This document shows positions 19 to 24,929 of a stretch of 34,346 nt of DNA, piece after piece. The stretch's first letter is position 1. The number at the start of each line of letters is the position of its first letter. The notes beneath the pieces are model-generated. The model saw nothing but the letters and a program-made list of their open reading frames with translations. It ran no database searches and was not told the DNA's origin. The stretch is from Bryobacteraceae bacterium (lineage in GTDB: Bacteria > Acidobacteriota > Terriglobia > Bryobacterales > Bryobacteraceae), in assembly GCA_025056865.1 (NCBI GenBank), contig JANWVO010000026.1:1-34346 (forward strand). The letters are read 5' to 3'. Position numbers and translations under genes: made by a program.

Positions 19-32
19 AAAGGAGGTGGTCC
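19..32 (+). promoter_or_regulatory. Extended Shine-Dalgarno, 14 nt complementary to the 16S rRNA 3' end
   Basis: The sequence AAAGGAGGTGGTCC can pair along all 14 positions, with one G-U wobble, with the usual bacterial 16S 3' end (GGATCACCTCCTTT). Ordinary Shine-Dalgarno sites pair over 4-7 nt. It lies 7 nt before the ATG of a 14-codon mini-ORF, and its GGAGG core ends 13 nt before that ATG, which is longer than optimal. The heptamer GGTGGTC inside it (25-31) recurs at 69-75, and both copies are complementary to GACCACC at 156-162, so the site could be masked by RNA folding. Confidence 0.6.
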
Positions 33-39
33 AGTCGAT

Positions 40-84
40 ATGAGTTCTGGTAGTAAGTGTTCGCGCGAGGTGGTCAGCGGATAG
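40..84 (+). CDS. 14-residue mini-ORF (possible leader peptide)
   Basis: An ATG at 40 opens a 14-codon frame, [14 protein letters not shown], ending at TAG 82-84. No function is recognised. Three things support it as more than chance. It sits behind an exceptionally long Shine-Dalgarno. It is followed at once by a nested hairpin (85-166) and a strong terminator (213-247). Its first codons (AGT, TCT, GGT, AGT, TGT) end in T, unlike neighbouring genes that strongly prefer G or C in third position. The T-ending codons could reflect constraint on the RNA rather than the peptide. It could be a regulatory leader peptide, a conserved microprotein, or simply part of a structured RNA. Translation is not proven by the sequence. 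Confidence 0.4.
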
Positions 85-247
85 GCTCGCTCCTGGTTTC
101 CGTGCCACCCGCCAGAGGGCCCATCGCGGCCGGCGGAAGGAGTGGACCGGATCCAGACCACCGAGCGCTCTCCAAGCAATAGGCCGCAGGCCTGTTGACC
201 GAAAGGCTACCGAAAGCCCCGCCGCCGGTGTCCGGCTGCGGGGCTTT
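85..247 (+). ncRNA. Putative structured RNA downstream of the mini-ORF
   Basis: No protein gene fits 1-313. The segment folds into a long interrupted hairpin that starts right after the mini-ORF stop. The pairs are 85-89 with 162-166, 93-96 with 153-156, 99-102 with 148-151, 105-108 with 142-145, and 109-113 with 132-136. A second hairpin, AGGCC-GCA-GGCCT, spans 181-193. A third, with a GAAA (GNRA) loop, spans about 196-209 (CCGAAAGG). The RNA ends in a rho-independent terminator. A competing helix can form between GACCACC (156-162) and GGTGGTC at 69-75 or 25-31. No Rfam family was recognised by eye. The 5' end is uncertain and may lie before the window. Confidence 0.4.
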
Positions 248-248
248 T
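213..248 (+). terminator. Rho-independent terminator ending the mini-ORF/structured RNA unit
   Basis: The ten-base arm AAAGCCCCGC (213-222) pairs perfectly with GCGGGGCTTT (238-247). Inside it GCCGG (224-228) pairs with CCGGC (232-236) around a TGT loop. The arm ends in TTTT. This separates the upstream RNA from rpmE, which has its own promoter at 276-284. Confidence 0.85.
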
Positions 249-24853: not shown

Positions 24854-24929
24854 TGGTGGACGGCATGGGACTCGAACCCACGACCCCCGCGTTGCGAACG
24901 CGGTGCTCTCCCAACTGAGCTAGCCGCCC
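24854..24929 (-). tRNA. tRNA-Ala (anticodon CGC)
   Basis: The reverse complement gives a complete 76-nt cloverleaf: acceptor GGGCGGC with GCCGTCC, D arm GCTC-AGTTGGGA-GAGC, anticodon arm CCGCG-TTCGCAA-CGCGG, and T arm with GTTCGAGTC. The anticodon CGC reads GCG (Ala), and the acceptor carries G3-U70, the main alanine identity element. The CCA end is encoded in the DNA (24854-24856). It decodes a codon much used in this GC-rich genome. It stands alone, without neighbouring tRNAs. Confidence 0.97.

Follow-up and report, generated by a model that had tools for sequence, protein, structure and literature searches.

The window analysed here, a stretch of 34,346 nucleotides from a Bryobacteraceae genome, begins at a contig end (C38 of genome G000), and its first 250 bases carry GGAGGTGGTCC, an open reading frame (ORF) of 14 codons, a nested hairpin, a GC-rich hairpin, and a terminator. 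A preliminary description regarded these bases as a compact RNA in which the heptamer GGTGGTC occurs twice (25-31 and 69-75) and can pair with GACCACC (156-162). The positions given there for the heptamers, the mini-ORF, and the terminator are exact. All features of the unit lie on the plus strand.

The RNA unit has a length of about 240 nt (8-250). Its own promoter lies off the contig, and the start was placed with the help of the relatives. A promoter-like box was found upstream in 82 of 118 relative loci, compared with 17 of 2360 random stretches, and the distance from the end of this -10-like box to GGAGG is nearly constant (18 nt in 68 of the 82), which puts the 5' end at about CATCAC (window position 8). 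Further downstream follow a predicted 9-bp hairpin (177-197) and the intrinsic terminator (214-248, about 215-248), composed of a GC hairpin and TTTT. Of 116 relatives, 91 likewise have a terminator-like hairpin downstream, compared with 18 of 348 random stretches, and the own terminator proposed earlier is retained. Both predicted folds are more stable than expected by chance, with z-scores of -3.81 for positions 1-260 and -3.69 for 8-250 and 0 of 200 shuffles as good in either case. According to blastn, the RNA is a single-copy element in its own genome. The search reached near relatives only; 19 of 61 genomes had a match, the window's own among them (21 matches, two of them representing the second piece of one locus; locus L015 entered via its terminator).

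The gene rpmE (314-571 of the window) is located downstream of the unit. It is the next gene in 70 of 112 judgeable loci, and none was recognised by a short protein motif in the other 42 (10 further loci were too short to judge); the promoter, terminator, and neighbour counts cover all loci, including same-contig duplicates (e.g. L013, L022, and L092). Constant adjacency, as expected for a cis-acting rpmE leader, is thus not observed, and the RNA is not simply such a leader. In the window, a promoter-like TGCTATACT is visible by eye ahead of rpmE. The earlier suggestion of a unit independent of rpmE is borne out by these loci and by the terminator between the two. Positions 8-250 are a stand-alone RNA gene with a ribosome site, a 14-codon ORF, a covarying structure, and a terminator.

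Two Shine-Dalgarno elements and a mini-ORF

The first Shine-Dalgarno element, SD1 (AGAAAGGAGGTGGTCCAGTC, 17-36), forms 20 contiguous pairs (two of them G-U) with the 16S rRNA 3' end GGCTGGATCACCTCCTTTCT. This 3' end was read from locus L159 of G004, a genome in the window's genus; no such 16S end site was found in the window's own genome. With the 16-base 16S tail, SD1 yields a duplex of -29.8 kcal/mol, the best value among 34,326 20-mers sampled at every second base on both strands of the window, followed by -21.2 kcal/mol. One-base variants of SD1 (GGAGGATGGTCC, GGAGGATGATCC or GGAGGTTGATCC) occur in nine Acidobacteriota loci (L030, L035, L043, L044, L045, L046, L048, L049, and L051). Eight of the 30 loci matched by the covariance model R1 (described below) lacked the SD pattern near the match, and all eight, together with L044, represent such variants. 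The nine loci still carry GAGGTG, nine bases, and a stop codon at the exact distance.

The mini-ORF (40-84) comprises 14 codons from ATG (40-42) to the stop codon TAG (82-84); in the list of ORFs, the same frame is counted from the contig start and thus has 27 amino acids and an open 5' end. As read from the sequence, the stop codon is situated in the loop of a small hairpin, AGC-GGATAG-GCT (76-87), and similar stop-codon hairpins (CGACT..AGTCG) are recognisable by eye in several relatives. Selection on the frame was assessed with a frame-free pattern in which SD1 is followed, after 22-52 bases, by GAGGTG and then by nine bases and TRR. It matched in 56 of 396 Acidobacteriota genomes and in 14 of 40 genomes belonging to the same phylum as a genome with the title Candidatus Sumerlaeia. 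An in-frame open ORF starting with ATG, GTG or TTG was present in 46 of 47 distinct Acidobacteriota matches and, with an NTG start, in 13 of 13 distinct matches from the Sumerlaeia genome's phylum, compared with 6 of 68 matches in viral contigs, a rough control of different composition whose matches (67-68) look like chance. The reversed pattern gave 20 matches in 18 Acidobacteriota genomes and none in the Sumerlaeia-phylum set; for this reason, the raw count of 56 genomes, which includes a chance match in G065, is no proof alone, and the evidence lies in the frame test. A mini-ORF under frame constraint is thereby shown by comparison of homologues, in agreement with the compact RNA with a mini-ORF described earlier.

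The frame is kept across homologues of 11-22 codons. This survey encompassed 174 loci, 166 of them with an NTG ORF (the exceptions are L044, L046, L184, L186, L187, L188, L191, and L193); L190 and L194, which were assigned a wrong start, were set aside for the length range, and L069 and L105 are cut off. Counts of ORFs refer to distinct sequences, as some loci are the same contig twice (L013, L022, L092), and they are phylogenetically clustered and do not represent independent events. In seven Actinomycetota loci (L184, L186, L187, L188, L191, L193, and L194), the conserved frame seems to be opened by ACG, CTG, ATC or ATT, and a very strong Shine-Dalgarno sequence is found by eye ahead of the non-NTG openings. 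These near-cognate starts point to SD1 as a more important determinant of recruitment than the start codon, and they weaken the claim of efficient translation.

Inside the mini-ORF lies a second element, SD2 (GAGGTG, 67-72), whose GAGG is separated by 11 nt from the stop codon and by 8 nt from the last sense codon. Since requiring GAGG at 11 nt forces the codon GAG and would render the codon count circular, SD2 was evaluated on loci chosen by SD1 and leader only; 104 of these 106 loci were readable (two are cut off at the locus end) and delivered 91 distinct ORFs. GAGG is placed exactly 11 nt ahead of the stop codon in all 91. Among all 174 selected loci, the same distance applies to 138 of 141 distinct ORFs, the exceptions being L006, where it is 10 nt in a different frame, and L190 and L194, whose starts were wrongly assigned.

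The glutamate codon at SD2 is GAG in 91 of 91 ORFs and never GAA, and the valine codon is GTG in 86 of 87 (the remaining four ORFs have glycine); in long ORFs of the same contigs, GAG accounts for 53% of glutamate and GTG for 44% of valine codons. The codons after GAGGTG vary in base and residue. Fixed GAG and GTG codons followed by variable ones imply that the constraint acts on nucleotides. In one clade of six loci, inspected by eye, valine is lost and the closing helix P2 (see below) looks rebuilt on both strands, with GAGG still at 11 nt. Pairing alone is insufficient to explain the constancy of GAGG, as its partner strand drifts by G-U pairs and GG does not: in the Bryobacterales set, alignment pair 103-284 is GC in 75, GU in 19, and AU in 0 sequences, pair 104-283 is GC in 85, GU in 6, and AU in 0, and an A at these G positions of GAGG was encountered in one of 100 sequences, where it is unpaired.

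SD2 hardly serves as a start signal for a second ORF, because a start codon rarely follows it: none is located 4-13 nt downstream in 85 of 106 loci, and of the 21 loci with a start codon two have ATG. As a complement of 16S rRNA, SD2 is not exceptional (rank of about 140 among 34,326, -15.8 kcal/mol). The 8 nt between GAGG and the last sense codon resemble initiation spacing; GAGG-to-start distances in these contigs show a weak enrichment at 4-9 nt.

Helices, masking strands, and a pseudoknot

The long hairpin is closed by helix P2, formed by CGCGCGAGGTGGTC (62-75) and a 3' strand at positions 156-168, which includes the anti-Shine-Dalgarno-like strand A1 (GACCACC, 156-162). RNAalifold predicted almost no structure from a plain MAFFT alignment of 19 sequences. 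The P2/P4 structure emerged after the window genus (L001-L005) and L006 had been dropped; R1 was therefore built from 13 sequences of the window's order without L001-L006. RNAalifold yielded 28 predicted pairs for the 13 sequences, and 11 of these vary on both sides. In 100 sequences (98 distinct, window included) aligned to R1, a fit that favours the structure, 15 of the 18 P2 and P4 pairs show changes on both sides, and 93.3% of the cells are paired, compared with 83.1% after shuffling; no shuffle was as high. A check for covarying pairs had been recommended for the nested stem and for the pairing of 69-75 with 156-162, and homologues with compensatory changes do exist in both. The complementarity noticed earlier is accordingly real, with folds that surpass shuffled sequences. 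That the heptamer repeat is more than chance is indicated by comparative evidence, namely the compensatory changes in P2 and the top rank of the region around 25-31, in SD1, as a complement of the 16S tail.

Mutual exclusion of the two structures had also been proposed. An alternative pairing of 156-162 with 25-31 is indeed possible; the pairing of 69-75 with 156-162 is the base of the long hairpin itself and no alternative to it. What stands is that, by complementarity and folds, the Shine-Dalgarno-like strands are able to pair in a mutually exclusive manner with an anti-Shine-Dalgarno-like strand, as A1 has SD2 as its partner in the folds and SD1 as a possible other one.

A second anti-Shine-Dalgarno-like strand, A2 (GGCTACC, 205-211), adjoins the terminator. 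In the fold of positions 8-250, its part 207-211 (CTACC) pairs with SD1; in the fold of 1-260, SD1 pairs instead with the upstream bases 4-11, most of which may be missing from the mature RNA. A GGUAG/CUACC pairing between the ORF start and A2 is visible by eye. Position and resemblance suggest that A2 is the counterpart of the CAGNCACC box in other clades. This box lies ahead of the terminator and is the partner of the SD2 strand in Actinomycetota, where GGAC within the ORF is also paired with GUCC of the terminator region. Across 28 of 30 sequences (L187 and L192 were left out, and MAFFT misaligned some rows), these helices have 92.5% of cells paired vs. 80.1% in shuffles and a covariation score of 0.368 vs. 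0.134. The support for masking helices is taken from this alignment and not from an earlier cross-pairing test, in which 0 of 2000 permutations were as good and which relied on a crude box finder that left 10 loci boxless and placed several boxes wrongly. Similar boxes were detected by eye and by a simple search in other Acidobacteriota. Downstream anti-Shine-Dalgarno-like strands can mask SD2. In the variant-SD1 loci, two partners that overlap, GCCTCAG and a CAG(N)TCACC-like box, seem to be available to the SD2 strand.

A pseudoknot is predicted between the 5' arm CACGGAAG (11-18) and the loop strand TTTCCGTG (97-104). Most relatives show CACTGA or CACTGG in the 5' arm and TCAGTG or CCAGTG in the P4 loop, a pairing absent from model R1. 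In the large alignment, the loop of the window genus is unaligned, and its pseudoknot was read directly from CACGGAAG and TTTCCGTG. Of 92 sequences, 58 have A-U and 17 have G-C at column pair 11-167, and the other 17 are unpaired there. The helix exceeds shuffles slightly (90.8% vs. 88.8% of cells paired), an excess that is small since most of the helix does not vary, and further pair types are no better than shuffles (212 of 500). Covariation at few positions and in few lineages speaks for the putative pseudoknot more weakly than for the closing helix. An AUCACU/GGUGGU pairing in the leader was considered and not adopted, as it offers almost no variation to test.

Apparent relatives in other phyla and the Ms_IGR-5 family

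The covariance model search recommended for Acidobacteriota returned homologues in several classes of this phylum, with R1 matching in 33 of 297 genomes (three of these matches are without a locus and were not read). Applied to chosen distant loci, mostly from Actinomycetota, R1 found 45 of 47 at E <= 1 and 39 at E <= 0.01 in the expected place; the shared 5' box probably drives much of this score. In two records, title and RNA seem at odds. A contig titled as a Bordetella parapertussis metagenome-assembled genome (L092, 1-8000, CALQCC020000012.1) contains an Acidobacteriota RNA identical to that of L013 and L022, and G028, which shares this contig, has a 16S end (CCTCCTTAAC) unlike the other 16S ends read; the record is probably mislabelled or a mixed bin. 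L131 (6227-6389), titled Acidimicrobiia bacterium, harbors a Bryobacterales-type copy scoring 112.6 bits with R1 and is perhaps a mislabelled bin.

The preliminary description recognised no known family. For the window itself, this agrees with the Rfam results: Ms_IGR-5 (RF02471), described in Rfam as an Actinobacteria sRNA with a gathering score of 45 bits, gave no match to positions 1-320 at E up to 10 and none in the window's own whole genome at E <= 1, and all seven matches of any family to positions 1-320 at E up to 10 were weak and far from the gathering score. For relatives, it does not hold, since Actinomycetota and a small number of other Acidobacteriota contain elements with the same architecture that score as Ms_IGR-5. 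Among 20 relative loci, one exceeded the cut-off (L047, 50.6 bits). In a set of 12 loci, this was the case for L093 (Nocardioides, 117.4 bits), L047 (50.6), and L038 (50.3), with L050 (39.3) and L033 (35.6) below the cut-off and seven loci unmatched. RF02471 matched 48 of 246 Actinomycetota genomes, 23 above the cut-off, and 30 of these 48 matches were read as loci (L164, L166-L194). R1 and RF02471, although built from different phyla, match the same place in L047, L038, L050, and L033.

Common to the window RNA and Ms_IGR-5 are a leader with ACAC followed by about GAAAGGAGGUGGUCC, a mini-ORF ending in GAGGUG, nine bases, and a stop codon, a terminator, and an SD2 strand paired with the CAGNCACC box, which is unpaired in the Rfam consensus structure. 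Differences are the pseudoknot and the P2/P4 core of the Bryobacterales members, both sought within that set. The shared architecture was defined in this analysis, not by Rfam, as SD1, an in-frame mini-ORF, GAGGUG-N9-stop, a 3' box pairing with SD2, and a terminator. The window RNA has SD1, the frame, the exact GAGGTG-N9-stop, and, as its 3' box, A1 and by resemblance A2. It looks like a divergent branch of one superfamily and, being unmatched by RF02471, is not filed as an Ms_IGR-5 member. Judged from this architecture, elements in three phyla (Acidobacteriota, Actinomycetota, and the Sumerlaeia genome's phylum) look related.

Two further systems show partial likeness. The tmRNA is a structured RNA with an internal short ORF and a stop codon in a hairpin loop, both of which recur here; unlike in tmRNA, the ORF of the window RNA is led by its own Shine-Dalgarno sequence. 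In the Rfam scan of the whole window at gathering score, the only match was a tRNA (24857-24929, minus strand), with none to tmRNA. Internal Shine-Dalgarno elements of the prfB type cause programmed pausing or frameshifting and share the fixed short distance to a stop codon; in contrast to these, the spacing here resembles that of initiation, with 8 nt separating GAGG from the last sense codon, and no slippery codon was noticed.

In passages of three papers, MS_IGR-5 (or IGR-5) is listed as an expressed sRNA (PMC8079986; PMC8780764; PMC10454040); the first of these lists the relative in Streptomyces lividans TK24 as transcribed. A fourth paper reports that MS_IGR-5 homologues of M. abscessus and M. 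smegmatis carry ribosome-protected reads, and cautions that many non-coding RNAs yield such reads (PMC4974804), which is why the Ribo-seq signal on the family is not decisive. In open-licence full texts, no description was found of a mini-ORF, a second Shine-Dalgarno sequence, a function, or members outside Actinobacteria.

A possible mode of action and its alternatives

The own terminator, the independence of rpmE, the conserved frame, and the Shine-Dalgarno-like strands together indicate that the RNA is probably trans-acting and engages ribosomes, as had been considered possible. The preferred reading, for which the chances are estimated at slightly below even, is a stand-alone, translated, structured RNA that engages ribosomes and acts in trans as a ribosome trap or as a sensor of free ribosomes. 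It builds on features shown by comparison of the related sequences, namely the SD1-16S complementarity, the frame constraint, GAGGTG nine bases before the stop codon, and the masking helices. SD1 would capture a 30S subunit, and the mini-ORF would be translated. In a ribosome at the stop codon, the anti-Shine-Dalgarno sequence would face SD2 at an initiation-like distance (8 nt from GAGG to the P-site codon). The spacing suggests that SD2 could hold this ribosome and slow termination or recycling. A held ribosome would keep P2 open and free the 3' anti-Shine-Dalgarno-like strands, which would then close SD1, so that about one ribosome per RNA might be engaged at a time; the peptide would be a by-product.

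Unlikely, though the strongest of the alternatives, is an sRNA that blocks the Shine-Dalgarno sites of other mRNAs via its 3' CACC strand, with translation of the mini-ORF only unmasking the seed. C-rich seeds of other sRNAs act on Shine-Dalgarno sites, the window has two such strands, and in the Actinomycetota alignment the end of the 3' box, which pairs with SD2, is well conserved. In the Bryobacterales set, however, it is the 3' partner of GAGG that varies (C to T in 19 and 6 sequences), GAGG itself being almost invariant; a conserved seed would be expected to show the opposite.

Quite improbable is a passive decoy in which SD1 alone binds 30S subunits and translation is incidental. SD1 is the strongest 16S complement in the window, and a passage on relatives reports Ribo-seq reads (PMC4974804); conservation of the frame at variable length and the constant distance from GAGG to the stop codon would nevertheless be left without a reason. 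Slightly less credit still is given to a dual-function RNA whose mini-ORF peptide has a function of its own. The frame is conserved, and the endings TREVADS*, TREVADC* or SEVAEA* recur, but only Glu-Val is near constant and coincides with the GAGGTG nucleotides. The remaining residues and the length vary, one clade reads REGAGS, and L006 loses Glu-Val and keeps GAGG near the stop codon.

A guide or checkpoint for maturation of the 16S 3' end is very improbable. Positions 17-36 of the RNA pair with 16S rRNA up to UUUCU, which we take to be the mature end, and not with the next precursor base. This explanation leaves the mini-ORF, SD2, and the 3' strands unaccounted for; moreover, 16S maturation is universal, but the RNA was not found in most genomes searched (the pattern matched in 56 of 396 and the model in 33 of 297, and both searches miss variants). 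A leader regulating rpmE by attenuation is the least probable alternative, as rpmE, although it follows the RNA in the window and in 70 of the 112 loci judged, is not recognised in 42 and is separated from the RNA by a terminator and a promoter-like sequence seen by eye.

Beyond the preliminary description, the analysis contributes GAGG at a fixed distance of 11 nt before the stop codon, the putative pseudoknot, the 20-base complementarity to 16S rRNA, and the apparent spread over phyla. For an sRNA family called actinobacterial by Rfam, relatives apparently exist in two further phyla, and its members seem to contain a mini-ORF of conserved frame together with two Shine-Dalgarno elements. A wider possibility, considered less likely than not, is a cross-phylum class of regulatory RNAs that measure or buffer free ribosomes by near-complete pairing with the 16S tail, a dozen codons whose identity hardly matters, parking at the stop codon by SD2, and resetting by anti-Shine-Dalgarno mimics. 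For the Ms_IGR-5 family, which the passages cited above list without a function, this offers a functional hypothesis. If ribosomes are held at the stop codon, the role of internal Shine-Dalgarno sequences at termination would become directly testable, and the RNA would represent a natural means of sensing or buffering free ribosomes.
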